From: Bacteroidales bacterium
GTDB lineage: Bacteria > Bacteroidota > Bacteroidia > Bacteroidales > VadinHA17
DNA: 38,061 bases
Assembly (NCBI GenBank): GCA_003141495.1
Contig: PLMC01000088.1
Span: 332-38,392 of the forward strand
Direction of reading: 5' to 3'
The notes below the pieces were generated by a model that had not been told where the DNA came from, did no database searches, and worked only from the letters and a program-made list of their open reading frames with translations. The position numbers and the translations under genes are program-made. Positions 2,716 to 23,762 of the stretch are shown here, one piece after another; the first letter of the stretch is position 1, and every line of letters starts with the position of its first letter.

Positions 2716-3813
2716 ATGAATAATTATTTTCAAAACCCAATTTTACAAGAAGATATCTTACCTGTTGAAGTTGTATTTCATCCCTCATGGTGGTTTAAAC
2801 ATACAGGTATCACATTTGATCAGGATTTTTTTTATCATCCATTAAAACGAGTTGAATCCGAAAAAAAAATGGAGAAAGAACTCTATAATAAATTCGGGAT
2901 GTATGGCCTTGGTATAGACAGGAATAAAGATTTGCCGGTAATTGGCGCTGTTCATAATGCATCTGGTTATATAATTTCCGAACTATTGGGTTGCAAAGTA
3001 AATTATTTTGAAGACTCTGCCCCTCAGGTTTATCCGGCTAATCATGAGGAGTTAAAAATTTATAATAACGATATCTTTAAAACGCCTGTTTTTAAAAAAT
3101 TAGAGCATCTGTTAGAGAAATTAAAGGGTAAATATGGATACCTGATCGGTGATATAAATTGGGGAGGCATTCTGAATATTGCCCTCGATTTACAAGCAGA
3201 AAAAATTTTTTCGGATTTTTTTGAAAAATCTGAAGAAACTAAAAATTACTTCTCCGACATTTCTAAGGTAATAGAAAAATTCACAACTTTTATAGCAAAA
3301 GAAACCGGAACTACCTCTGTTTCAGTTAACCGGATTGTGAAACACTTTAACAATCCGGTGTTTTTACATTCAGAATGTTCACACACAATGATTTCTACTG
3401 AGCAATATGAGGAATATTTGTTGCCTTTTGATGTAAATTGGAGCCAAAGGTTTCGGCCATTTGGCATCCACTACTGTGGATCAGATCCTCATAGATATGC
3501 TAGAATATTTCAAAAAATTCCACATCTCGACTTTCTCGATGTTGGTTGGGGAGGGGATTTAAAAGAGATACGAAAATACTTACCTGAAACATTTTTAAAT
3601 ATAAGATTAAATCCGGTAGAAATAAATAGTTATACGGATGAAGAATTGTCAAATACAATAAAAAAACTTGTTATAGATTCTAATAATCCTAATTTAACAG
3701 GTATTTGTTGTATTAATATGGACGATAAAGTCGAGGATAATAAAGTTGTTGTAATATTTAAAACAGTTGAAGAGTTAAGAAAAAGTTACCATTTAGGAAG
3801 TAGGTTTGGATAA
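2716..3813 (+). CDS. UroD-superfamily methyltransferase (MtaA/CmuA-like)
   Basis: A 365-residue protein of the uroporphyrinogen decarboxylase fold. Members outside haem synthesis move methyl groups between small substrates, corrinoid proteins and thiols. The C-terminal half carries the zinc-type signature of this methyltransferase group: H252-x-C254 in 'GIHYCGSDPHRY' and C331 (in 'GICCINMD') 76 residues later, with 'FLDVGWGGDLKEIRKYLP' between. True HemE enzymes lack this Cys/His set, so I do not call it HemE. It lies after a truncated LacI regulator and before a DUF6807 gene, 6-20 kb from two paralogues and the corrinoid operon. The methyl donor is unknown. A substrate-specific methyltransferase feeding the distant corrinoid protein is the best guess. 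Confidence 0.75.
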   Translation: MNNYFQNPILQEDILPVEVVFHPSWWFKHTGITFDQDFFYHPLKRVESEKKMEKELYNKFGMYGLGIDRNKDLPVIGAVHNASGYIISELLGCKVNYFEDSAPQVYPANHEELKIYNNDIFKTPVFKKLEHLLEKLKGKYGYLIGDINWGGILNIALDLQAEKIFSDFFEKSEETKNYFSDISKVIEKFTTFIAKETGTTSVSVNRIVKHFNNPVFLHSECSHTMISTEQYEEYLLPFDVNWSQRFRPFGIHYCGSDPHRYARIFQKIPHLDFLDVGWGGDLKEIRKYLPETFLNIRLNPVEINSYTDEELSNTIKKLVIDSNNPNLTGICCINMDDKVEDNKVVVIFKTVEELRKSYHLGSRFG

Positions 3814-6649: not shown

Positions 6650-6932
6650 CCAGGGATTTTTGCAAAATTGAATGATTTAAGAAAAGTGAGAATTTAAAGC
6701 CTGATTTTGGAGGCGGAGTCAGCAATTTTAACTGTCCTGCATAAGCAATAAATGCCACCGGGAATTATCGTAGAATGGGCCCCAAGCTGATTTCTCATTC
6801 AATCTCATGTCATACCGAGCAAAACAGATCCGTGCACAAGTTCTTAAAGGCGCCAGATTTGAGAAATCCTCTGAAAAATGGCCTTTTGATCCTTTTTTAG
6901 TGAAATATGCACTTTAAATAATTACTCCGTAA
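6650..6932. other. Intergenic stretch with a possible short gene relic
   Basis: Nothing here is recognised with confidence. One open stretch from 6806 (ATG) to 6916 (TAA) encodes 36 residues ('MSYRAKQIRAQVLKGARFEK' and on) with fairly normal codon use, but it matches no family I know. It lies where the missing N-terminal FAD-binding part of the following broken gene would be expected, yet does not look like a Rossmann fold. It may be debris from the rearrangement that also left the fhs fragment. Confidence 0.3.
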
Positions 6933-7003
6933 ATCAGGTTTTAATATGACTGCTGCATCTGAAGTTATGGCGACACTTTGTATCGCTAAAGATCTCATGG
7001 CTC
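6933..7003 (+). repeat. Relic of formate-tetrahydrofolate ligase gene (second copy of an fhs segment)
   Basis: About 70 bases match the intact fhs gene at 22665-22735. The fhs protein reads 'SGFNITAASEVMAILCIAKD' and this segment reads 'SGFNMTAASEVMATLCIAKD' in its own frame. At the DNA level the central 35-40 bases differ at only two or three positions. The match ends abruptly on both sides. The apparent start codon of the next ORF (ATG at 6946) is simply the fhs Ile codon ATT changed to ATG. This is a duplicated or recombined piece, not a functional domain, since it lacks the P-loop and the rest of the enzyme. Confidence 0.8.
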
Positions 7004-7530
7004 TGGCCAAGGTTTCTTGTACCATTGGGCGAGAGGTAAACACTTTGTATGGCGAAACCTATAATGGGGTTAAACAGATGAAAGAAAATCAGTTTCCTGA
7101 TGGAATTGATCCCTATAAGAAACCTGGCGATCCTTCCAGTGGGTTATTATGGGGGATATCAAACGAAAAGCTTGCTCCCCAAGATAGTGGCGATAAAAAA
7201 GTACAGGCTTATAATTACCGCATCTGTCTCACTAACAATCCGGGCAACTTAATACCTATCCCCCGTCCGGCCAATTTCGATTCTACCTGGTACGAGCTTT
7301 TGCTTCGACTCATGAAACAAACGGGCAAAACCACATTAAACGATTATTTTATCTGGACCATCAAGCCTAACCAAAAAACCGATACTAATAACGAAAATGG
7401 CTTTTCAACAGATATGAAGGGAATGAACCGGGGTTATCCGGATGCATCTTACGCAGACCATGAGAAAATTATAGCCAACCATACCGACTACACCAAAGGA
7501 TTATTGTATTTTGCTGGCCATGATCAGTGA
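6946..7530 (+). pseudogene. Broken FAD-dependent oxidoreductase, 5' part (N-terminus replaced by fhs relic)
   Basis: After about 20 fhs-derived residues the 194-residue ORF switches to the FAD_oxidored family of Bacteroidota polysaccharide loci: 'IGREVNTLYGETYNGV', then 'TNNPGNLIPIPRPANFD' and 'MNRGYPDASYADHEKI'. The N-terminal dinucleotide-binding Rossmann segment (GxGxxG) is absent, so FAD could not be held normally. The frame ends at TGA (7528-7530) after 'LLYFAGHDQ' but continues unshifted as 'VLEELHRQMLQWGYPQDEF', the normal family sequence, so the TGA is a nonsense codon, perhaps from CGA or TGG. The gene therefore has two inactivating lesions. The ATG at 6946 has no claim to be a native start. 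Confidence 0.75.
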
Positions 7531-7554: not shown

Positions 7555-9273
7555 ATGCTTCAATGGGGCTATCCTCAAGATGAATTTACAAAAACAGGGA
7601 ATTTCTCTACTCAATTATATATTCGTGAGGCATGTCGTATGATTGACGAATATGTGATGATAGAGCATAATTGTACTGGTAAAGAAGTAATATCCGATGC
7701 TATAGGGATGGCGGCTTACACGATGGATTCGCATAATGTTCAACGTATTGTGGTGAATGGAATGGTAAAAAACGAAGGAGATGTGGAAATTGGTGGTTTC
7801 CCGCCTTATCCTATTTCATATCGATCACTCACGCCTAAACGAGGCGAATGTAAGAACCTTCTTGTTCCCGTCTGTTTATCGGCTACACATATTGCCTGTG
7901 GATCAATCCGCATGGGACTTGTGTTTATGGTGTTGGCGCAATCGTCGGCTATAGAAGCACCCGAAGCAATTAATACAAACAAATCTGTTCAGGAAGTTGA
8001 TGTTAAAAAAATCCAGGCAAAACTTATTGAAGACCCGCTTCTCAATGGTTCTATTCCCGATATTATCGACGATATGGATTCTACTTATATTCAAAAAGCA
8101 GGTACTTTCGAAAAAAGCAGTGCCTGGATGGGGCAATATGGTGCAACCTATCTGGTTTCAACTAATGCAGATGATAAAACTATTGTTACATTGGTTCATG
8201 ACATTAAAAAAACAGCTCAATATGATGCTTATTTTTATTGTCCGTCTAATACTAAAAGCGGAAAGATTAAAATTCAGGTAAAAGTAAAAGAGAAAACTTT
8301 TTCAATGAATCTTGATCCGGCTCAATACCATGGCGAATTTGCATCTATAGAAACTTATTCCTTTGAGAAAGGACAAATGCCTGCAATATCAGCAATGCTG
8401 GCTAATAGTAACGGGATACTGGTAGTGGATGCATTACTGCTTAAAGCAAAAAAATCTAAGGTTACAATACAACCAAATCTCGGGAATGCTAATATTAACG
8501 ATTTTCCAGCAGATATTGAGTTGTCAGCTACACAGCTCTTGGCTCCAGCCCCGGGTATTAGGGTAAGGTCGATTGAAAAAGGCTGGGAGGAGCCGGAGGT
8601 TTACCACACGTTGCATCTTCCAAAGAACTGGAATACCAATAAAAAATTCCCAGTTATCATTGAGTACGCAGGCAATGGAGACTATAATGAGTGTGGTGAT
8701 GTGTGCGATGGGAGCGCAGAAGGCTCGGTAATGGGCTACGGCTTGTCTGGTGGGCGTAAGTTTATTTGGCTTTGTTTACCTTTTGTCGAAAAAACAGCAT
8801 CGACTAAAAAAAATGCTGTCACCTGGTGGAGAGATGTAGATGAAACAATAAGGTATTGCCAACAGGCAGTCGCAGATGTTTGTTCGAACTGGGGTGGGGA
8901 TACCCATCGGGTTATTTTAATGGGATTTTCACGTGGGGCCATTGCTTGTAACTACATTGGCCTGCATGGCGATGATATAGCTCATCTCTGGTGTGGTATG
9001 CTCTGCTACAGCCACTACGAAGGTGAGTTTAAGCATACATCTGCGGACCTAAAGGACTGGCCCACTCGACTGCAAAGGTTGGGCGATCGCCCCCAATTTA
9101 TTTGTCAAGAGATTAGCACTCTTAATATTGAGCAGGCAATTCAATCTACAGGATATAAGGGGAATTTTACCTATGTTACCATTCCTTTCAAAAATCACTC
9201 CCAACGCTGGACCCTTTGTGATTTGCCAGTAAGAAAGCAAGCTCGCAAATGGATTGAGGATTTAGTGAGGTAG
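7555..9273 (+). CDS. C-terminal part of FAD oxidoreductase fused to an alpha/beta-hydrolase
   Basis: A 572-codon frame continuing the broken gene before it. Residues 1-140 or so are the end of the FAD_oxidored domain ('QLYIREACRMIDEYVM', 'GGFPPYPISYRSLTPKRGEC', 'LLVPVCLSATHIACGSIRMG'). Residues of about 170-305 look like the beta-rich carbohydrate-binding or golvesin-type domain often attached to it. From about residue 340 the protein is an alpha/beta-hydrolase or esterase: 'LHLPKNWNTNKKFPVIIEYA', nucleophile elbow G-F-S-R-G-A with S459, and a likely catalytic H548 in 'FKNHSQRW'. The oxidoreductase part cannot work without its N-terminus. The hydrolase half is intact and could still fold if translation starts at 7555, but no signal peptide would precede it. 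Treat it as the second half of a pseudogene unless expression is shown. Confidence 0.6.
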   Translation: MLQWGYPQDEFTKTGNFSTQLYIREACRMIDEYVMIEHNCTGKEVISDAIGMAAYTMDSHNVQRIVVNGMVKNEGDVEIGGFPPYPISYRSLTPKRGECKNLLVPVCLSATHIACGSIRMGLVFMVLAQSSAIEAPEAINTNKSVQEVDVKKIQAKLIEDPLLNGSIPDIIDDMDSTYIQKAGTFEKSSAWMGQYGATYLVSTNADDKTIVTLVHDIKKTAQYDAYFYCPSNTKSGKIKIQVKVKEKTFSMNLDPAQYHGEFASIETYSFEKGQMPAISAMLANSNGILVVDALLLKAKKSKVTIQPNLGNANINDFPADIELSATQLLAPAPGIRVRSIEKGWEEPEVYHTLHLPKNWNTNKKFPVIIEYAGNGDYNECGDVCDGSAEGSVMGYGLSGGRKFIWLCLPFVEKTASTKKNAVTWWRDVDETIRYCQQAVADVCSNWGGDTHRVILMGFSRGAIACNYIGLHGDDIAHLWCGMLCYSHYEGEFKHTSADLKDWPTRLQRLGDRPQFICQEISTLNIEQAIQSTGYKGNFTYVTIPFKNHSQRWTLCDLPVRKQARKWIEDLVR

Positions 9274-14430: not shown

Positions 14431-15690
14431 ATGAAAACAGCAAGCAATTCAAAAGAGAACTTTTTAAGGACTATCAACCATCAGCAACCAAATAAGGTCG
14501 TTGTTGATTTTGGTTCAACTAGTGTCACAGGCATTCATGCACTTATAGTTGAAAAACTGCGGGATTATTATGGACTTGAAAAACATCCAGTTAAAATAAT
14601 TGAACCTTACCAGATGTTGGGAGAAGTCGAACGTGATCTCGTTAGATCAATGGATATTGATGTGATTGGAATATTTGGTGCGAAGAATATGTTCGGCATT
14701 CCAAATGAAAACTGGAAACTGCATAGGACCTTATGGGGACAGGAGGTTCTCTTTCCTGGTGATTTTAACTATACTTTTAATAAAAATGGTGACATCCTGA
14801 TGTATCCTGAAGGAGATACATCAGCTTCGCCATGTGGAATGATGCCTAAATCGGGATATTTCTTCGATGCGATCGAGAGACAGGAGCCTATTGATGAATT
14901 AAAACTAAGAGTTGATGATAATCTTGAAGAGTTTGGCCCTGTCTCTGAAAGCGAACTTCTCTACTGGAAGAACCAAATCGACTCCCTGAAAGATATTGAT
15001 AAGGGTGTTATGGCCTCGCTGGGAGGAACAGCTCTTGGAGACATTGCTCTTGTTCCTGGTCTGAACCTGAAAAAGCCAAAAGGCATTAGGGGAGTTGCTG
15101 AATGGTATATGTCAACTCTGACAAGAGCAGATTTCATCAGGGAACTGTATGACAGGCAAACAGATATAGCTGTCGAGAATCTTAAAAATATATTCAGTGT
15201 CATTGGAAACAGGATAGATGCAGTGTTTATTTGCGGTACAGACTTTGGTACACAGAATTCAACTTTCTGCTCACCTGAGACTTATAAACATCTATGGTTG
15301 CCTTATTATAAGAAAATAAATGACTGGATCCATCAAAACACTACCTGGAAAACTTTTAAACACTCTTGCGGTGCAGTAGAATCGTTTATCCCATTGTTTA
15401 TAGAATCGGGATTTGATATAATAAACCCGGTTCAGATAAATGCATCAGGAATGGAACCTAAGAACCTTAAAAGAAAGTATGGTGATGAGATCGTTTTCTG
15501 GGGTGGAGGAATTGATACACAGGGCGTATTTGCCTTCGGAAAACCACAGGAGGTGAAAGATCAGGTTAAAAGACAATGTGAGATCCTGAATAAGAACGGA
15601 GGATTTGTGTTTAATACAGTTCACAATATTCAAGCCAATGTTCCTTTCGAAAATGTAATTGCAATGCTTGAGGCATTAAAAGAGATTTAA
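14431..15690 (+). CDS. UroD-superfamily methyltransferase with H-x-C...H site
   Basis: A 419-residue member of the uroporphyrinogen decarboxylase-like methyltransferase group, longer than its two paralogues in the window. It opens with the common 'SKENFLRTINHQQPNKVVVD' head and ends with 'FVFNTVHNIQANVPFENVIA'. The expected metal site has H311-x-C313 ('FKHSCGAVESFIP'), but the third position holds H399 instead of the cysteine found in MtaA/MtbA. I infer a zinc or substrate-binding variant, probably the enzyme that takes the methyl group from the growth substrate. It stands 1.35 kb before the divergent corrinoid operon, on the same strand, with the AraC gene between them. Aromatic O-demethylase and sugar-demethylase roles are both possible, and the sequence does not tell. 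Confidence 0.75.
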   Translation: MKTASNSKENFLRTINHQQPNKVVVDFGSTSVTGIHALIVEKLRDYYGLEKHPVKIIEPYQMLGEVERDLVRSMDIDVIGIFGAKNMFGIPNENWKLHRTLWGQEVLFPGDFNYTFNKNGDILMYPEGDTSASPCGMMPKSGYFFDAIERQEPIDELKLRVDDNLEEFGPVSESELLYWKNQIDSLKDIDKGVMASLGGTALGDIALVPGLNLKKPKGIRGVAEWYMSTLTRADFIRELYDRQTDIAVENLKNIFSVIGNRIDAVFICGTDFGTQNSTFCSPETYKHLWLPYYKKINDWIHQNTTWKTFKHSCGAVESFIPLFIESGFDIINPVQINASGMEPKNLKRKYGDEIVFWGGGIDTQGVFAFGKPQEVKDQVKRQCEILNKNGGFVFNTVHNIQANVPFENVIAMLEALKEI

Positions 15691-16035: not shown

Positions 16036-16905
16036 TTATCTTAGTATTTTAAACCGTTTACGGTATTCCGAGGGTGGTACTCCAGTATTTTTTTTAAATT
16101 GCTTATTGAAATGGCTGATGTTGTTAAAACCACTATCCAGACATATTTCCAGGATGCTCAGATCTGGGTCCATCAGTAGTTTGCACGCAAATTCAGTTTT
16201 AATCTTATTCAGGTATTCAAAAACAGTAATCCCCGTGTTCATTTTAAAAAACCGGCACAATGAACCTTCAGCCATATTGACGAGAGCAGCTAACCTCTTC
16301 AAATCCACCTCTTCATGGTAATTGTTCATTAAATATTCATGGATGGCTGCTATCCGTTTATTACTGGTTGTGAACCGCATTTTAAGATATTCTTTGCTAG
16401 CCAGTTGAACATTACTTTCACTTTTCCCGATAATGTCCATCAGCATAAAAAAATGAAGCATCCGGTCAAAACTTTTCAAATAAGGTAACTGGAGCATGAT
16501 TTCACTCACTTCATTGAGAGTATGCCCAACAATATGAATTCCTCTTTCTGATAATTCCAAAGTTCTTTTGACATAGCTGAATTCGGGAAGAGATAATAAT
16601 TGAGGAGATAAAACATTCGATGTAAACTGAAGAAAAACCATTTCAAGAGTCCTGTTGGAAGGAGTCCGGGTTTCTTTATCCGCAATCCAGACATGTGGAA
16701 GATTCCGACCAATAAATGCCAGGTCGCCAGGTTGAAATGCTTCGATTGAATCAGCCACAATCCGCTTTCCGGAACCCTCTGTTATGAAGCTGATTTCAAA
16801 ATTATTATGGTAATGCCAGGTGCTTTTTTCAAGGTTGTCCTGGAAAATCCCTATAAAGAACGATTCATCATCTTTCACAATTATTTTCTCAAATAGAGCT
16901 GGCAT
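16036..16905 (-). CDS. AraC-family regulator with cupin sensor domain
   Basis: A 289-residue protein. The N-terminal half is a cupin-type sensor ('WHYHNNFEISFITEGSGKRI', 'FQPGDLAFIGRNLPHVW'). The C-terminal 100 residues carry two helix-turn-helix units: 'VDLKRLAALVNMAEGSLCRF' and 'ILEICLDSGFNNISHFNKQF', ending with the family signature 'GVPPSEYRKRF'. It is transcribed away from the corrinoid operon across a 138-bp gap, the classic layout for a local activator. Cupin AraC proteins of this sort in Bacteroidota often sit in sugar-use loci, which fits a carbohydrate-derived inducer, but the ligand is unknown. The 97-aa plus-strand ORF inside it is a shadow. Confidence 0.85.
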   Translation of the reverse strand: MPALFEKIIVKDDESFFIGIFQDNLEKSTWHYHNNFEISFITEGSGKRIVADSIEAFQPGDLAFIGRNLPHVWIADKETRTPSNRTLEMVFLQFTSNVLSPQLLSLPEFSYVKRTLELSERGIHIVGHTLNEVSEIMLQLPYLKSFDRMLHFFMLMDIIGKSESNVQLASKEYLKMRFTTSNKRIAAIHEYLMNNYHEEVDLKRLAALVNMAEGSLCRFFKMNTGITVFEYLNKIKTEFACKLLMDPDLSILEICLDSGFNNISHFNKQFKKNTGVPPSEYRKRFKILR

Positions 16906-17043: not shown

Positions 17044-17712
17044 ATGGAAGATTTGCTCGAAAAGTTGCTTGAAGCTGTGGAATTGGGAAAGGTTGATAAA
17101 AAATCCCCTTATCCTCCCAATTTAAAAGATCAGGATGGAGCTTATGAACTTGCAGGGAAAGCGCTTGAACAGGGATGCAAACCCGATGAGATCCTTGAAA
17201 AGGCATTAATACCAGCAATGGCAAATGTTGGTAACAGATACAGTCGCAGAGAGATATATGTACCTCAGATGCTTATGTCAGCAAAAGCAATGGGTGGTGC
17301 AATGCTTCACCTTAAACCATTCTTTCAGTCGGGTGAAACAAAAAGAAAAGGAACTTTTATAATAGGTACTGTTACAGGCGACCTTCATGATATAGGGAAG
17401 AATCTTGTTTCAATGATGGTGGAAGGTGCTGGCTGGGAGGTAATTGACCTTGGTGTTGATGTCAGTACCGAAAAATTCATTAAGGCAATAGAAGAAAAAC
17501 CCAGCGCTGTCGTAGGTCTTTCAGCCTTGTTGACGACTACCATGGAAAACATGAGAAAGATTGTAGCCGACATTAAAACAAAGTATGCTGGAGTCAAGAT
17601 ACTAGTAGGAGGAGCCCCGGTAACAATGGAGTATTGTAAAAAGATCGGAGCCGATTTTTATTCACCTGATCCACAGGGTGCAGTCAATTATTTAAAAAAC
17701 CTTGCATCATAG
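17044..17712 (+). CDS. Corrinoid (methyl-carrier) protein, MtaC/MtvC-type
   Basis: A 222-residue protein of the usual length for stand-alone methyl-carrying corrinoid proteins. Residues 1-90 or so form the four-helix cap domain ('GCKPDEILEKALIPAMANVG', 'EIYVPQMLMSAKAM'). The rest is the Rossmann-like B12-binding domain with the base-off/His-on motif 'GDLHDIGKNLV' (D113-x-H115-x-x-G118), 'VVGLSALLTTTMENM' and the 'VGGAPV' loop. H115 is the predicted lower cobalt ligand. The protein would accept a methyl group on cob(I)amide from a UroD-type methyltransferase and hand it to the methyltransferase encoded 18 bases downstream. It is the first gene of a six-gene operon that includes every partner needed for methyl transfer to THF. 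The reverse direction is chemically possible. Confidence 0.9.
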   Translation: MEDLLEKLLEAVELGKVDKKSPYPPNLKDQDGAYELAGKALEQGCKPDEILEKALIPAMANVGNRYSRREIYVPQMLMSAKAMGGAMLHLKPFFQSGETKRKGTFIIGTVTGDLHDIGKNLVSMMVEGAGWEVIDLGVDVSTEKFIKAIEEKPSAVVGLSALLTTTMENMRKIVADIKTKYAGVKILVGGAPVTMEYCKKIGADFYSPDPQGAVNYLKNLAS

Positions 17713-17730
17713 CGATTTAACCTATTGTAA

Positions 17731-18576
17731 ATGAAAACAATACTGTGCGGAAGTACCAGAGAGGTTATAATTGATACTAATGGTCCGGTTATAATTATCG
17801 GGGAGAGTATTAACCCAACAAGACGAAAAAAGCTGGTATCCACATTACAGGAAGGGAATTTTGAATATGTGCTTGAGTTAGCCAGAATACAGATCGATGC
17901 AATGGCTGATGTCCTGGATGTCAACGTAGGTTTCCCTGGCGTTGATGATGTAAAACTACTTCCGGAAACTGTAATAGCAATTCAGAATAAATTCGATATT
18001 CCGCTTTGCCTTGATTCTCCCAATCCTAAGGCTATTGAAGCAGCGCTTAAGGTGGCAAATGGGAAATGCCTTATTAATTCTGTGAATGGAGAAGAACATT
18101 CTTTAAATGCTATCCTGCCTGTTGCAAAAGAATTTGGTGCTGCCATAATTGGATTGGTAATGGATGATAACGGGATCACTCACGATCCAGAAAAAAGACT
18201 AGCCATTGCTGAAAAGATACTTGAGAGAGCACTTAAGCTGGGGATCAAAGAGGAGTACGTTGTTATCGACCCTCTTGCTATGGCTGTAAGCGCCGATCCA
18301 AATGCATGCATGGTTACTATGAAAACTATCAGGCTTATTCATCAGAAACTTGGGCTTAATATTACTATGGGCGCAAGCAATATATCTTTCGGATTGCCAA
18401 ACAGGGAAATCCTGAATGCTGCCTTTATGACATTATCAATACTGAACGGGCTTACCTGTCCGATTGCAAACCCTGAGAAGATAACTGCTGCTGTAAGAGC
18501 TGCAGATCTTATACTTGGGCGCGATGATTTTGCAATGAGATTTATAGAGTATTCACAAAGAACTATTAATGTATAA
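17731..18576 (+). CDS. Methyltetrahydrofolate:corrinoid methyltransferase (pterin-binding)
   Basis: A 281-residue TIM-barrel protein of the pterin-binding family that contains AcsE, the MetH THF domain and the methyltransferase II enzymes (MtvA type) of acetogen O-demethylases. Visible motifs: 'GESINPTRRKK' (from residue 24), 'DVLDVNVGFPG' (61-70), 'CLDSPNPKAIEAAL' (93-106), 'INSVNGE' (115-121), 'MGASNISFGLPNR' (213-225). These contact the pterin and match AcsE-like enzymes better than dihydropteroate synthase, which works in folate synthesis. It would move the methyl group between the corrinoid protein upstream and tetrahydrofolate. No B12 domain is attached, consistent with use of the separate carrier. 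Confidence 0.88.
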   Translation: MKTILCGSTREVIIDTNGPVIIIGESINPTRRKKLVSTLQEGNFEYVLELARIQIDAMADVLDVNVGFPGVDDVKLLPETVIAIQNKFDIPLCLDSPNPKAIEAALKVANGKCLINSVNGEEHSLNAILPVAKEFGAAIIGLVMDDNGITHDPEKRLAIAEKILERALKLGIKEEYVVIDPLAMAVSADPNACMVTMKTIRLIHQKLGLNITMGASNISFGLPNREILNAAFMTLSILNGLTCPIANPEKITAAVRAADLILGRDDFAMRFIEYSQRTINV

Positions 18577-18626
18577 TTGAGAAAATTAGTTCTTGATTCT
18601 GCACAATAACTTCTAATCTTTTTTCA

Positions 18627-20069
18627 ATGTCTCTTTTTACACCTTCGCGCAGATGGCAGCCAGCATTTTATCCTTTTAAGAAAGAAAAATTTGTCAGGCG
18701 TCTGCTTGCAAAAACCGAACTTCTTGTAAAAGGTCCGCTTTTTGGGTGCAGAATGTGCGGAAATTGTCTTCTCCAGGAAACAGCTTTTATATGTCCTATG
18801 GAATGCCCCAAAGGTATGAGAAATGGACCATGTGGCGGCACAACATCCTCAAAGAATTGTTATGTCGACGAAACACGTAAATGCATATGGTATTGTATTT
18901 ATAAACGAGCAGAACAATTGGGTAGAGAAGATATGCTACTTGAAGTACTTCCCCCTCTAGATTGGGAAAAGGTTGGAACAGAAACATGGGGCGAAGTAGT
19001 ACGGCAAATCCAAAAAGTGGGTACTGCAAATTTTTTAAAGGCTATGCTCTCAAAAGATAAAGAAATAAAATCAAAGACATGGGATAGCGTCTTTAAAACA
19101 ATTCGTCAGCCTGATTGGTGGAAGGGTGATTCTGATTACCACGCACCCGGCTACATCGAACCTTTTTCGGATCTTGAGAAGCAACTACAGGAGGGAGAAT
19201 TTGTTGTTACGACTGAAGTGACACCACCATTAAATGCAAATACTGATAGATTGGCTAAAGATATCGAACAGGTAAAGCGTTGGATAACAGCTGTAAACTT
19301 TACTGATTCTTCCTCTGCACGGCCGAGAATGTCGAGTATAGTATGTTGTAAAGTAGCTAACGATCATAATGTTGAACCTGTCTTGCAAATAGCAGCACGC
19401 GATACAACGCGAACCGGACTCCAGGCTAATATAATTGGTATTAACGAATTGGGTATATTCAATGTTTTATGCGTCACCGGCGATAGCGCAAAGGTGGGTC
19501 CTTCACCAATGAGTAGTATGAACCTTCTCGATATCGACTCAGTTCAAATGTTATGGTTATTGAGACGGATGCGCGATGAAGGAATTTATCTTGATGGAAG
19601 AAAAATGAAAAATCCCCCTAAAATGTTTCTTGGAGCTGCAACAACCCCTTTTGCCTCAGACCCAAGATTACAGGCAATAAAGGATCATAAAAAAGTAAAT
19701 GCCGGTGCACAGTTCTTCCAGACTAATCTTGTCTTTGATACTGAGAGACTTGACGCATGGTTTGAACAACTCGATAAAAGGAACATCCTCGACAAAGTAT
19801 ACATATTAATTGGTATTGCTCCTCTGAAAAGCTTTAAAGTGGCTGAATACCTTCATACGAAAGTTCCAGGAGTCAGCCTGCCGGATAATATATTAAGCAG
19901 GATGGAAAAAGCAGGCGAAGGTGCTCCAGAGGAAGGAACTCAGATTGCCTTGGAATTGATTGAGTCAATTAAGAAAAAAAAGGGAGTTAATGGCATTCAC
20001 ATAATGTCCTTAGGATGGGAATCAGTAGTCCAGAGGATCGTAACCGATTCGGGTCTCTTACGTAAGTGA
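18627..20069 (+). CDS. Fused MetV-MetF methylenetetrahydrofolate reductase
   Basis: A 480-residue fusion. The N-terminal part is the cysteine-rich domain otherwise found as separate MetV or at the tail of some MTHFRs. Its nine cysteines at 41, 44, 47, 56, 60, 69, 78, 86 and 90 ('GCRMCGNCLL', 'CPMECPKGMRNGPCGGT') should bind iron-sulfur clusters. From about residue 180 a MetF TIM barrel follows: 'FVVTTEVTPPLNANTDR' with the active-site-type E197, 'AVNFTDSSSARPRM', 'GIFNVLCVTGD', 'GAQFFQTNLVFD'. It interconverts methyl-THF and methylene-THF on FAD. In acetogens MetV and MetF are usually two subunits. Here they are one chain, and no NADH-binding or Hdr/Rnf partner gene adjoins. In this operon I expect the oxidative direction. 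The electron acceptor is unknown. Confidence 0.85.
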   Translation: MSLFTPSRRWQPAFYPFKKEKFVRRLLAKTELLVKGPLFGCRMCGNCLLQETAFICPMECPKGMRNGPCGGTTSSKNCYVDETRKCIWYCIYKRAEQLGREDMLLEVLPPLDWEKVGTETWGEVVRQIQKVGTANFLKAMLSKDKEIKSKTWDSVFKTIRQPDWWKGDSDYHAPGYIEPFSDLEKQLQEGEFVVTTEVTPPLNANTDRLAKDIEQVKRWITAVNFTDSSSARPRMSSIVCCKVANDHNVEPVLQIAARDTTRTGLQANIIGINELGIFNVLCVTGDSAKVGPSPMSSMNLLDIDSVQMLWLLRRMRDEGIYLDGRKMKNPPKMFLGAATTPFASDPRLQAIKDHKKVNAGAQFFQTNLVFDTERLDAWFEQLDKRNILDKVYILIGIAPLKSFKVAEYLHTKVPGVSLPDNILSRMEKAGEGAPEEGTQIALELIESIKKKKGVNGIHIMSLGWESVVQRIVTDSGLLRK

Positions 20070-20119
20070 AATATATTTATGATAAATTTTATTAGACTTA
20101 CTGACAAATAGTTGTAAAA

Positions 20120-20818
20120 ATGGAAAGTACTCATTTTCAATTTGCTTTATCAGAACTGAACCTTAATGTTTCTCAGATTGAGAGTGTGATGGGGTATAAA
20201 CAGGGCGAATCGCAGGAAACCATCTCGGATCTTATTTCTGAAGTGCTTAAAGAAACGGAGGCGATCTGCAATATAAAGGGTGAATATAGGATTTTATCAG
20301 ATATTCAGTTTAATGATGTTGAAAAAACGATTGAAATCAATCATCTGGTTTTTCAGATAAAGAAGATTGTTTACGGGCTAATTAAAAAATCAGATTCAAT
20401 AGCCGTTTTTCTTTGTACTGCTGGTGAAGGTATCGGGATCAGAAGCAAGAAAGCAATGAAGGAGGGTGATCTTTTAACAGGTTATATATATGATGTTATT
20501 GGTAGTGAAATAGTTGAATCAGCGGCGGATTTGATGCAGAATGAACTTGAAAAAACAGTGATTTCTTCCGGAAAGAAAATAACTAACCGGTATAGCCCGG
20601 GATATTGTGGTTGGGATGTTACAGAGCAACATAAATTATTCGAGCTTGTTCCCAGTAATTTTTGTGGCATCAGATTAACTGAATCGGCACTCATGGATCC
20701 TATTAAATCTGTCAGTGGTATTATTGGTATAGGTGAAAATGTCAGGTTTAATCCTTATACATGTAATTTGTGCGACAATAAGAATTGTATTTATGGGAAT
20801 GCAAGAGAAAAAAACTAA
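20120..20818 (+). CDS. Stand-alone MetH-type B12 reactivation domain protein
   Basis: A 232-residue protein resembling only the C-terminal activation domain of cobalamin-dependent methionine synthase. The AdoMet-binding signature is clear: 'NRYSPGYCGWDVTEQHKLF' (156-174), 'CGIRLTESALMDPIKSVSG' (182-200). A short C-terminal cysteine cluster follows, C215-x2-C218-x4-C223 in 'YTCNLCDNKNCIYG', which MetH lacks and which might hold a metal or iron-sulfur centre. Its likely job is reductive methylation or reduction of the corrinoid protein when cob(I) is oxidised to inactive cob(II). Acetogens use the ATP-dependent iron-sulfur activator RACo for this, and none is present. The flanking genes support the corrinoid-activation role. 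That the protein uses SAM is inferred from the motif. Confidence 0.8.
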   Translation: MESTHFQFALSELNLNVSQIESVMGYKQGESQETISDLISEVLKETEAICNIKGEYRILSDIQFNDVEKTIEINHLVFQIKKIVYGLIKKSDSIAVFLCTAGEGIGIRSKKAMKEGDLLTGYIYDVIGSEIVESAADLMQNELEKTVISSGKKITNRYSPGYCGWDVTEQHKLFELVPSNFCGIRLTESALMDPIKSVSGIIGIGENVRFNPYTCNLCDNKNCIYGNAREKN

Positions 20819-20932
20819 AGATCAAGTTTTAATCACTAGAAGATGAGAAAAATGTTTACTTAATATTACATATTTTAAATAACAAATTGGTAATCAATAT
20901 TACATTACTAAAAACTTCAAGAACTAAAAAAG

Positions 20933-22039
20933 ATGAAGAAAAATATGATAGAATGGAAAAACTCCATTATTGCTTCGGAAGAGATAAAAGCTATGCCGAT
21001 AATGACCTATCCAGGGTTAAATATTCTGGGAAAAACTGTATTGGAATTGGTTACAGACGGTGAAGTTCAATACCGAAGTCTTAAAGCATTGTCAGACAGG
21101 TATCCAACAATAGCATCTGCTACATTAGTAATGGCTCTATACGTTGAGGCAGAAGCATTTGGCAGTGAGATAAACTATGGTCAAACCGAGATTCCTACTG
21201 TTTCAAAAAGGTTGATTGACTCTTTTGACTCATTAGCAAGTCTGAATATACCAGAAATAGGTGAAGGCAAAACCCGTGAGCATCTGAAAGCTGCAAAACT
21301 GGCAACAGAAAACATCACAGATCATCCGGTTTTTGGAGGGATTATTGGCCCTTATTCACTTGCCGGGCGGCTTTATGACATTACAGAGATGATGGCTGCC
21401 ATACTTATTGAACCCGAAGGAGCTCACAAATTATTGCAGGTTTGCACAGACTTTCTCAAAAAATATGCTAAGGCTTTCAAAGATGCAGGTTGTAATGGTA
21501 TTATAGTAGCCGAACCTGCTGCCGGTTTATTGGCCGAGAAAGAGTGTAATGAATTTTCATCCTTCTATGTTAAACAAATAGTTGACCATGTTCAGGACGA
21601 AAACTTTATAGTTATTCTGCATAATTGTGGAAATACTGTACCTCTTGTAAATTCAATGGTTTCGACAGGAAGTGCAGGTTTCCACTTTGGTAATGCGGTT
21701 GATATGCTCGATATTTTACCATATATACCTTCAGACCGTTTAGTCTTTGGCAACCTAGATCCTGTAGGGATTATTAAAAATGGTACGCCTGAAATCATCA
21801 GAGCAGAAACACTTGAATTATTAAATAAAACAGCCTCGTTTAAAAACTTTGTTTTGTCTTCGGGATGCGATATACCTCCGAGTACAAAAATCGAAAACAT
21901 TGATGCATTGTTTAATGCATTAAATGAGTACAATGAGGATCAATTAAACTCAATAAAAGATGACTTTAGTAGCTTTTTTGAGAATGAATTATTAGAGAGA
22001 GAGGTGCTCTGTTGGGATAACACTCTTTCAGTGGCTTAA
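20933..22039 (+). CDS. UroD-superfamily methyltransferase, MtaA-like with H-x-C...C site
   Basis: A 368-residue protein with the best MtaA/MtbA-like features of the three paralogues. It reads 'FGGIIGPYSLAGRLYDITEM' and 'GCNGIIVAEPAAGLLAEKEC', then the zinc site H230-x-C232 ('VILHNCGNTVPLVNSM') and C312 ('LSSGCDIPPSTKIENIDALF') 79 residues on, the H-x-C-x(n)-C arrangement of methylcobamide:thiol methyltransferases. Bacteroidota do not make coenzyme M, so the partner is either a methylated donor feeding the operon's corrinoid protein or a thiol such as homocysteine, as in core-MetE-type enzymes. The first fits the operon better, since it already has a route from corrinoid to THF. The 114-base gap before it is the largest in the operon and could hold a secondary promoter, but none was recognised. 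Confidence 0.82.
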   Translation: MKKNMIEWKNSIIASEEIKAMPIMTYPGLNILGKTVLELVTDGEVQYRSLKALSDRYPTIASATLVMALYVEAEAFGSEINYGQTEIPTVSKRLIDSFDSLASLNIPEIGEGKTREHLKAAKLATENITDHPVFGGIIGPYSLAGRLYDITEMMAAILIEPEGAHKLLQVCTDFLKKYAKAFKDAGCNGIIVAEPAAGLLAEKECNEFSSFYVKQIVDHVQDENFIVILHNCGNTVPLVNSMVSTGSAGFHFGNAVDMLDILPYIPSDRLVFGNLDPVGIIKNGTPEIIRAETLELLNKTASFKNFVLSSGCDIPPSTKIENIDALFNALNEYNEDQLNSIKDDFSSFFENELLEREVLCWDNTLSVA

Positions 22040-22091
22040 AGAATAACTTCAAAAACCATTATTATATCAAATTGAAAATTATAACGTTATA

Positions 22092-23762
22092 ATGAAGACA
22101 GATATTGAAATTGCTCAGCAGGTTGTTATAAGACCTATCGTGGAAATTGCTGAAAAGCTCGGTATTAACCCTGACGAACTTGAATTATATGGTAAGTATA
22201 AAGCAAAAATCCCCATATCCCTGATTGATGAAGGACGAGTAAAAAAAGGGAAGCTGATACTTGTTACTGCTATTACACCCACACCTGCCGGAGAAGGGAA
22301 AACAACTACATCAATCGGTCTTGCACAGGCTCTCAACCGTATTGGCAAAAAAGCAACAGTGGTTCTTCGTGAACCTTCTCTTGGACCCGTTTTCGGGATT
22401 AAAGGAGGTGCAGCAGGGGGAGGATATTCCCAGGTAATTCCAATGGAAGACATTAACCTTCATTTTACAGGAGATATGTCCGCGGTTGAAAAGGCTCATA
22501 ACCTTCTGGCAGCGCTAATTGATAATAATATTCAACTAAATGAAGGTAATCTTGATATAGATCCTCGAACTATAACCTGGAAAAGGGTTATGGATATGAA
22601 TGAAAGGTCACTTCGAGATATTATCATTGGGCTAGGTGGTTCAAATCAAGGTGTGCCTAGGGAATCTGGGTTTAATATTACAGCGGCGTCTGAAGTTATG
22701 GCGATACTTTGTATCGCTAAAGATCTTATGGACCTGAAAAAAAGACTTGGAGACATATTTGTAGGTTATACTTATAGTGGGAAACCTATTTTTGCCCGCG
22801 ATCTTAAGGCAAATGGAGCGATGACTGCACTGTTGAAAGAGGCCATAAAGCCAAATCTGGTGCAGACTCTTGAAGGTACTCCAGCTATTATTCATGGAGG
22901 CCCCTTTGCCAACATAGCCCAGGGAACAAATTCCATCATTGCTACAAAAATGGGACTGACCTTTAGTGATTATGTCGTAACTGAAGCAGGTTTTGCAAGT
23001 GAATTAGGGGCAGAAAAATTCTTCAATATTAAGTCCCGTTTTGGTAATCTACATACAGATGCGGTTGTGATAGTAGCAACAATACGTGCCCTTAAGTATC
23101 ATGGAGGTCTCAAGCTGTCAGAATTGCTTAAAGAAGATCTTGAAGCTCTTAAAAATGGATTTGACAACCTCGACAAACATATTGAAAATATGAAATATTA
23201 TGGTTTCAATCCCGTGATTTCAATAAATAAATTTGATAAAGATACAGAAGCAGAAATTAATCTGCTTAAGGAACATTGTAATTCACAAAGTGTTGCAGTT
23301 GCCCTTAATGAAGCATGGTCGAAAGGGGGAGAAGGAGCAATCGAACTTGCTAACTGTGTACTTAAAGCAATAAACAACTCTCCTACTGGCTTTAAACCAC
23401 TTTATGATCTTGAATGGTCATTTGAGAAGAAAATTGAGACCATAGCCTCCAGGATGTATGGTGCGGATCATGTCGAATATACCGTGCTTGCCAAGCAGCA
23501 GTTAAAGAAGATAGAAGAACTAGGACTAGGTAATCTGGCGGTATGCATAGCAAAAACACAAAAATCACTTTCAGACAATGAGCATAAGAAAGGTTGCCCT
23601 AAAGGATTTACTTTCAAAATCAGAGAAGTTGAACTCTCTTCCGGCGCAGGTTTTATAGTACCGATTGCAGGTACAATAATGCGTATGCCAGGTCTGCCCT
23701 CAAATCCTTCTGCTGAAAAGATAGATATCGATGAAAATGGTAAAATAACAGGGCTTTTTTAG
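22092..23762 (+). CDS. fhs: Formate-tetrahydrofolate ligase
   Basis: A 556-residue protein of the normal family length (about 555-560). The P-loop is 'TPTPAGEGKTTTSIGLAQAL' (63-82). Further typical segments are 'LREPSLGPVFGIKGGAAGGG', 'INLHFTGDMSAVEKAHNLLA', 'ITAASEVMAILCIAKDLMDL', 'TEAGFASELGAEKFFNIK' and the end 'AGTIMRMPGLPSNPSAEKID'. It makes 10-formyl-THF from formate and ATP or, in reverse, formate and ATP from formyl-THF. As the last gene of a demethylation operon the reverse, energy-saving direction is likely. FolD/FchA steps between methylene- and formyl-THF are not encoded here and would come from elsewhere. A roughly 70-bp copy of its middle lies at 6933-7003. No clear terminator follows. 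Confidence 0.95.
   Translation: MKTDIEIAQQVVIRPIVEIAEKLGINPDELELYGKYKAKIPISLIDEGRVKKGKLILVTAITPTPAGEGKTTTSIGLAQALNRIGKKATVVLREPSLGPVFGIKGGAAGGGYSQVIPMEDINLHFTGDMSAVEKAHNLLAALIDNNIQLNEGNLDIDPRTITWKRVMDMNERSLRDIIIGLGGSNQGVPRESGFNITAASEVMAILCIAKDLMDLKKRLGDIFVGYTYSGKPIFARDLKANGAMTALLKEAIKPNLVQTLEGTPAIIHGGPFANIAQGTNSIIATKMGLTFSDYVVTEAGFASELGAEKFFNIKSRFGNLHTDAVVIVATIRALKYHGGLKLSELLKEDLEALKNGFDNLDKHIENMKYYGFNPVISINKFDKDTEAEINLLKEHCNSQSVAVALNEAWSKGGEGAIELANCVLKAINNSPTGFKPLYDLEWSFEKKIETIASRMYGADHVEYTVLAKQQLKKIEELGLGNLAVCIAKTQKSLSDNEHKKGCPKGFTFKIREVELSSGAGFIVPIAGTIMRMPGLPSNPSAEKIDIDENGKITGLF

Follow-up and report, generated by a model that had tools for sequence, protein, structure and literature searches.

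The window analysed here, a 38,061-nucleotide stretch of a Bacteroidales genome (GenBank assembly GCA_003141495.1, contig PLMC01000088.1, positions 332 to 38,392), contains a six-gene operon at 17044-23762 that appears to encode the one-carbon section of a pathway for corrinoid-dependent demethylation. Its products are a corrinoid protein (CP), a methyl-tetrahydrofolate (methyl-THF):CP methyltransferase (MeTr), a fused MetV-MetF methylene-THF reductase (MetVF), a stand-alone MetH-type reactivation domain (Act), an MtaA-like methyltransferase of the UroD superfamily (UROD) and a formate-THF ligase (Fhs). Conversion of methyl groups to formate by this system is well supported, in a direction that we infer. 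Taking all the evidence together, we hold with slightly better than even confidence that methyl groups are turned into formate via this operon, that their donor is most likely a methylated plant cell-wall sugar, foremost 4-O-methyl-D-glucuronate, and that a conserved UroD-family protein encoded elsewhere in the genome (URODcons) is the likeliest first methyltransferase (MTI).

Results

Organisation of the operon and the proposed pathway

All six genes lie on the + strand at the positions reported by an earlier, sequence-only reading of this DNA, separated by gaps of 18, 50, 50, 114 and 52 bp, and profile searches against Pfam and NCBIfam bear out the families which that reading assigned to their products. 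CP (17044-17712), the predicted methyl carrier, has both B12-binding domains (PF02607 and PF02310) and its closest solved relative is 1y80 (E 1e-42). The pterin-binding protein MeTr (17731-18576; PF00809) scores 266.4 bits against NCBIfam PRK07535 (cut-off 259), and its closest solved relatives are 4o0q, 4o1e and 4o1f (E 3.6e-39), cited in the available text of PMC13222342 as the second methyltransferase (MTII) of a D. hafniense O-demethylase. By family and closest solved relative, MeTr is predicted to be an MTII that methylates THF. MetVF (18627-20069) joins PF12225 at residues 31-114 to PF02219 (MTHFR) at residues 183-475. Act (20120-20818; PF02965, Met_synt_B12) is the proposed CP reactivator, UROD (20933-22039) matches PF01208 (URO-D), and Fhs (22092-23762) matches PF01268 at E 3.5e-264 and PRK13505 at 874.5 bits (cut-off 652).

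The divergent AraC-family regulator gene of the sequence-only reading is likewise there, at 16036-16905 on the - strand (PF12833, E 5e-23; PF00165). In what follows, G numbers denote genomes (G000 being the host), L numbers fetched loci and C numbers contigs of G000; the genus set comprises 25 genomes. In G020 and G017 (85%) and in G031 (55%), an orthologue of the AraC gene diverges from the corresponding operon. The closest relative locus with the operon is L071, from a fen metagenome-assembled genome (MAG), at 93% identity in MetVF. Measured against this nearest sister locus (for Act, against L016), dN/dS is 0.04-0.18 for the six operon genes and the AraC gene, the latter standing at 0.04, so all seven are taken to be real genes under purifying selection.

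In the pathway that we propose, MeTr would hand the methyl group from CP to THF, MetVF together with FolD would oxidise methyl-THF to formyl-THF, and Fhs would release formate from formyl-THF, making ATP. The enzymes of these steps are recognisable by their sequences, and it is their direction that is conditional. Act, whose family is clear, would bring oxidised corrinoid back to its active state. A cell that worked in this way without carbon monoxide dehydrogenase/acetyl-CoA synthase (CODH/ACS) would be a natural 'formatogen' and not an acetogen.

A second copy in a xylan context

The sequence-only reading spoke of a single operon, which does not hold: the one in the window is an additional copy. 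The host genome (3.51 Mb in 135 contigs, with an estimated completeness of ~90%) has two copies of MetVF, 73% identical, one on C69, the contig of the window, and one on C7, where it comes with CP, MeTr and Act. The order on C7 is SusD, CP, MeTr, MetVF, Act, GH115 (on the opposite strand), LacI, SDR, ManD, XylB and XylA. The GH115 protein is an alpha-glucuronidase, ManD is a D-mannonate dehydratase (664 bits, cut-off 550) and XylA scores 671 bits against a xylose isomerase cut-off of 533; XylB stays below its cut-off (327 versus 380 bits), and the SDR is not specifically named by profiles.

Full-length fused MetVF occurs in 23 of the 25 genus genomes and also in G031, of another family; it was not found in G002 (75% complete) or G024 (90% complete). 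Class-wide, a screen of 395 genomes (E up to 1e-40 for MetVF) returned one genome, the host itself. For comparison of gene order we used the best 80 of the 377 relatives returned, with open reading frames (ORFs) called by a simple longest-ORF script that may miss short or overlapping genes. Three arrangements emerge. Type A, found in most of the genus, is CP-MeTr-MetVF-Act with neither Fhs nor UROD at the locus. Type B, with AraC divergent from CP-MeTr-MetVF-(Act)-(UROD)-Fhs, is found in the genus in the window, L071, G020, G017 and G005, whose contig starts at MetVF. In type C, from other Bacteroidota, RACo replaces Act and Fhs is added; RACo is present in G031 and in seven of 53 Bacteroidota loci. 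Act and UROD thus vary among operons of this kind, and besides the window UROD stands at only one MetVF locus of these 53, L071. A MetVF tree of 80 rows (proteins longer than 440 aa from the loci, plus the window and the second host copy) places the five type B rows in one set (98/96), next to type A rows at a support of 87/70, which is not strong.

The type A loci often lie among xylan or glucuronate genes, their neighbours including SusC/SusD, GH3, GH10, GH115, GH67, glucuronoyl esterase, XylA/XylB, Gfo/Idh and DUF6807 genes. Hardwood xylan commonly carries 4-O-methylglucuronate side groups, and GH115 and GH67 enzymes act on xylan as alpha-glucuronidases, releasing (4-O-methyl)glucuronate. 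Among genus genomes that bear a GH115 gene, six of eight (G000, G001, G010, G011, G017 and G022) have it within 12 kb of CP/MetVF or Act, G006 and G024 being the remainder; for GH67 the figure is four of nine (G001, G010, G011 and G016). If the chance of such proximity is set at 0.01 per genome, the linkage has p = 2.8e-11 for GH115 and p = 1.2e-6 for GH67. The sugar reading is limited by the fetched flanks of the 53 Bacteroidota loci, many of them short, in which only four loci show GH67, one GH115, three GH10 and two CE15, compared with 17 for XylA and 18 for XylB. In the GH115 region of G017, CP and Act lie 47 bp apart, with MeTr and MetVF absent between them. As the only MeTr and MetVF copies detected in that genome belong to its type B operon, the genes of this operon probably work for the GH115 locus as well. 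As a separate observation, the G024 locus L157 (7352-14999) has a CP near GH2-like, SDR and ManD genes, in a 90%-complete genome with no MetVF.

In the genus, we therefore consider the most likely donor to be a plant cell-wall sugar bearing a methyl ether, in particular 4-O-methyl-D-glucuronate released from glucuronoxylan by GH115 or GH67. By our reasoning a 4-O-methyl group would block later C3-C4 cleavage, and its removal would, as the gene context suggests, open the mannonate dehydratase route to the sugar. Methylated sugars of other kinds, or methylglucuronate taken up in free form from neighbouring cells, would fit too. The use of methoxy or methylated compounds foreseen by the sequence-only reading is upheld in part, the context suggesting a methylated sugar and not a methoxy-aromatic compound.

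Three candidates for the first methyltransferase

The UroD superfamily includes the O-demethylases MtvB, OdmB and VdmB (PMC13222342, available text), and three UroD-type proteins come into question as MTI: UROD in the operon, a protein encoded just upstream (UROD_up; 14431-15690, + strand; PF01208, 58.6 bits) and URODcons, encoded on C6 and linked elsewhere to CP and Act. The closest solved relative of UROD is MtaA (4ay7, E 1.4e-18); it keeps the HxC...C positions of MtaA, LHNCGN and SSGC aligning with LHICGN and APGC, and its best NCBIfam matches are the MtaA/MtbA models, below their cut-offs.

UROD_up has no PDB match by sequence. An 86% identical protein is encoded directly upstream of CP-MeTr-MetVF in L106, where GH53-type, sugar-porter and GH2 genes follow MetVF. 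Its relatives lie beside a sugar-porter gene, with GH2, GH51 or DUF5107 genes, in all five fetched genus loci (L051-L055), and in G006 and G001 weaker relatives (29-32%) are encoded next to a CP. It is a possible alternative first methyltransferase. The class-wide screen (E up to 1e-20) found UROD_up in two of 395 genomes, and with MetVF in one and UROD_up in two a co-occurrence test has no power.

URODcons is present in most of the genus (23 of 25 genomes), 21 times at 65% or more and at 51-54% in G005 and G006. The proteins fetched for it included two of the 15 URO-D matches of G019, two of the three of G005 and two of the seven of G006. Its usual site is between GcvP and GfoOxC. It adjoins Act and CP in G030, of another family, stands beside LacI-MFS-GH10-GH3-GH115 in G006, and in G031 belongs to a run that also contains DUF6807 and Gfo/Idh genes. 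In G023, 99% complete, there is no URO-D family match in the genome and the gap between GcvP and GfoOxC measures 82 bp; in the same genome CP stops at residue 42 and runs into residue 162 of MeTr, Act is without about residues 50-129, and MetVF is intact. Because this loss of URODcons together with a truncated CP, MeTr and Act looks like joint decay, URODcons is our first candidate, and we consider it the protein most likely to catalyse the first methyl transfer in the pathway shared across the genus. The window UROD and UROD_up may serve the same or other donors.

Separately, a UroD-family gene recurs jointly with DUF6807 and Gfo/Idh genes at L040 (6900-10613), L039 (2532-5118) and L064 (2080-10843); a possible part of such Gfo/Idh and DUF6807 neighbours in ether activation was considered, and the Gfo5 and DUF6807 proteins examined are probably exported, since their starts, read by eye, are signal-like. 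In the window, a 365-residue protein preceding the DUF6807 gene (2716-3813) has no Pfam match and, by eye, a UroD-like HxC stretch.

Evidence for an oxidative direction

The host genome contains the FolD domain on which the oxidation would draw, as do 40 of the 41 genomes searched. Twenty of the 25 genus genomes give strong Fhs matches, and contig C94 of G000 carries another Fhs gene, interrupted by a gap. Near MetVF, the 53 Bacteroidota loci include 12 with Fhs, four with a FocA-type gene and one with FolD. A single locus, L110, combines RACo, CP, AraC, FolD, FocA, Fhs, MeTr and MetVF; L033, the G031 locus, has the same set minus FolD; and the FocA-type gene is present in G031/L033, L110, L111 and L130. 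Oxidation of methyl-THF to exported formate fits such loci, with Fhs, FocA and in one case FolD, better than the other uses considered, although every step is reversible. Only three B12-binding_2 proteins are matched in G000, namely MetH and the two CPs, and only two, MetH and CP, in G011, the best-assembled genus member; as far as the profile sees, methyl traffic outside methionine synthesis therefore passes via this type of CP. With some carriers, oxidation of methyl-THF by MetVF-type enzymes is poor (PMC8760232, available text). The earlier claim that methyl groups become formate with ATP gain is strengthened by the presence of FolD, the loci that pair Fhs with FocA and the lack of CdhC described below; what it said of direction stays conditional.

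Weighing the alternatives

Several findings weigh against the combined reading. With regard to the donor, the window genes upstream of the operon are GH123, DUF5107, DUF6807, Gfo/Idh and broken FAD-oxidoreductase genes and not xylan genes; neither GH115 nor GH67 was detected in 12 of the 23 MetVF-bearing genus genomes; and MetVF is present in 11 of the 12 genus genomes with GH67 or GH115 and in 12 of the 13 without, so co-occurrence is absent. Since the presence of MetVF does not follow that of GH67 or GH115, the tie to glucuronoxylan rests on linkage. With regard to URODcons, the apparent co-decay in G023 comes from a single MAG, the gene persists in G002 and G024 although MetVF was not found there, and G030 has URODcons-Act-CP with no full MetVF and no Fhs. 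URODcons is also without Zn-ligand cysteines in 24 of 24 aligned sequences (that of G007, cut at a contig end, was excluded); zinc-free UroD-superfamily members and O-demethylases needing no zinc are reported in the available text of PMC13222342. With regard to direction, every enzyme of the proposed pathway is reversible, and the formate exporter expected of a natural formatogen was not detected: the 25 genus genomes, G000 among them, gave no match to the FocA-type family PF01226. L071 has a FocA-type gene between AraC and CP (1454-2265), in two frames and thus frameshifted or misassembled; the window, unlike L071, has none in that place.

The best-surviving alternative keeps the same direction and changes the donor: in the window this would be a methyl-sulfur or methyl-selenium compound, a methanol-like compound or a methoxy-aromatic, with the operon UROD as first methyltransferase, and the xylan setting of the sister copy would be a separate specialisation. 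The likeness of UROD to MtaA and MtbA in its HxC...C positions and profile scores speaks for this, as do its presence in the window and L071 alone among the compared loci, the lack of xylan genes in the window, and the methyl-sulfur and methyl-selenium roles proposed for MtaA-like proteins (PMC10418091, available text). Against it stand the occurrence of the UROD_up and URODcons families with sugar genes, the single type of corrinoid protein besides MetH in G000 and the repeated presence of the CP family in polysaccharide loci. We judge it rather unlikely.

Less probable again is a reductive use, in which formate would be taken up, reduced as far as methyl-THF with the help of Fhs, FolD and MetVF and carried on to methyl-CP, and the MtaA-like protein would methylate a thiol or other acceptor. 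MtaA is an acceptor-side enzyme, anabolic Fhs usually runs towards formyl-THF, and FocA-type channels are reversible, as are all the enzymes; however, such a route would cost ATP and reductant without an evident product, there is no ACS, no FocA was found in the genus genomes searched, and the loci lie in polysaccharide-degradation contexts. We consider this improbable and continue to favour oxidation of methyl groups to formate.

The two remaining explanations have very little in their favour, and we reject both. Service to methionine synthesis only, by methyl-THF supply and reactivation for a split methionine synthase, which the sequence-only reading had named as a possible refutation, would accord with the resemblance of MeTr, CP and Act to MetH domains, yet host contig C10 has a separate 1220-residue MetH frame with a complete activation domain, adjoining a stand-alone MetF; the operon is therefore not the methionine gene set. 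Most genus genomes encode a MetH with its activation domain, and the homocysteine S-methyltransferase Pfam domain expected of a split synthase is matched by none of the six operon proteins. A remnant or cryptic acetogenic Wood-Ljungdahl pathway, just as improbable, would agree with the origin of the closest MetVF relatives outside Bacteroidota, which lie in Chloroflexi acs clusters (of 27 loci, 22 have AcsC and 17 AcsB), and with the MetVF tree, in which the Chloroflexi sequences form a group together with the Bacteroidota clade of RACo/Fhs loci. The sequence-only reading had noted no acetogen CO-dehydrogenase genes, and the carbonyl branch whose discovery would have overturned it did not appear as far as was searched: the CODH/ACS beta domain CdhC (PF03598) is absent from all 41 genomes searched, AcsB and AcsC are absent from all 53 Bacteroidota loci, and PF03598 does detect AcsB in a Chloroflexi locus, as a positive control. 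In one such Chloroflexi MAG, at L114 (1438-4251), AcsB also matches the Intein_splicing family (PF14890, E 2e-6).

The reactivator and other features of the window

The AlphaFold model of Act matches the MetH activation domain 1j6r (E 9.9e-13, TMt 0.87), and stand-alone PF02965 proteins are known (PMC5764234, available text). Cysteines C163, C215, C218 and C223 are invariant in 14 of 14 aligned homologues and nearly so in an alignment of 31 (30 of 33 listed Act proteins plus that of the window, with L078, L088 and L104 excluded); three of the four form a C-terminal CxxCx4C. To our knowledge, four conserved cysteines are unexpected in a MetH-type activation domain. They hint at an Fe-S cluster, in a C-terminal region modelled at a predicted local distance difference test (pLDDT) score below 50.

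Rfam found no riboswitch in the window, its sole match being a tRNA. Promoter-like sites number 42 against 30.1 (sd 5.8) in shuffles and terminator-like sites 8 against 5.6 (sd 2.6), neither of which was used as evidence. At 6910-7530 an Fhs piece (profile positions 184-216, with one stop) is fused to a FAD-oxidoreductase gene lacking its N-terminal part, and that gene is split in two (6946-7530 and 7555-9273). The piece is either a misassembly or a decayed remnant; the other Fhs gene, on C94, is missing an adjoining piece of the protein at a two-N gap. Two adjacent ORFs at 3-809 resemble, by eye only, a broken transposase.

Discussion

The most specific form of our proposal is that a zinc-less UroD-type methyltransferase demethylates 4-O-methyl-D-glucuronate, and perhaps other methylated wall sugars, on a corrinoid, the methyl group leaving as formate with ATP gain. 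This would be the first such methoxy-sugar pathway, and we advance it tentatively, placing its chances somewhat short of even. For the terms used, the open-licence papers searched gave no recognisable account of anaerobic demethylation of 4-O-methylglucuronate by corrinoid enzymes. The main text of a study of methylotrophy in a mire (PMC10805028), which to judge by names may be the source of fen MAGs such as L071, has no word beginning 'bacteroid'. If the proposal is true, xylan-degrading Bacteroidota of fens, lake sediments and digesters convert methoxyl groups to formate, a methanogen substrate, and polysaccharide fermenters are natural formatogens: a testable counterpart, in nature, of a way of life until now observed in an acetogen after engineering (PMC10284823, available text).

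That acetogen is A. woodii, of which a mutant made formate from methyl groups in an engineered homoformatogenesis (PMC10284823, available text, for this and the following). As in the mutant, the methyl group would here be oxidised on THF and formate released by Fhs. The A. woodii operon of fhs2 and a formate transporter takes part in transient formate production, and it resembles the pairing of Fhs with FocA in some of the relatives compared here. The A. woodii case is, however, a deletion mutant of an acetogen grown on glycine betaine, whereas the gene sets described here are natural and without ACS; in gene content at least, they combine methyl-THF oxidation with Fhs. An acetogenic Wood-Ljungdahl pathway shares the THF methyl branch (MetVF, FolD and Fhs) with them and differs by its CODH/ACS. 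The Wood-Ljungdahl clusters of Chloroflexi (L114-L149) have a fused MetVF ~62-65% identical to that of the window, with MeTr and RACo adjacent, but carry acs genes, and the fetched loci contain no CP, Fhs or Act of the operon type.

In type 1 mlp gene clusters, too, MtaA-like proteins occur alongside a corrinoid protein and a reactivator. Their definition in the available text of PMC10418091 asks for two or more Mlps and a Ram protein and for the absence of any THF methylase within 20 kb, whereas our operon contains MeTr and one MtaA-like gene.

A close parallel is with the UroD-type corrinoid O-demethylases, namely MtvB, OdmB and VdmB of acetogens and the system of D. hafniense, whose four-part logic of UroD-type MTI, corrinoid protein, THF-dependent MTII and activator would apply here too, with three UroD proteins as candidate MTI; the operon MTII is closest to the solved D. 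hafniense enzyme. The differences lie in the phylum, here Bacteroidota; in the presence of MetVF and Fhs inside the operon and the absence of a carbonyl branch; in the activator, which in the window lineage is a MetH-type Act and not an ATP-dependent protein of the RACo, Ram or AE type; and in a context of polysaccharide and not aromatic degradation. Judged by its genes, the system would work like a corrinoid O-demethylase joined to an oxidative THF branch ending in formate, and would be neither an acetogenic pathway nor an mlp cluster.

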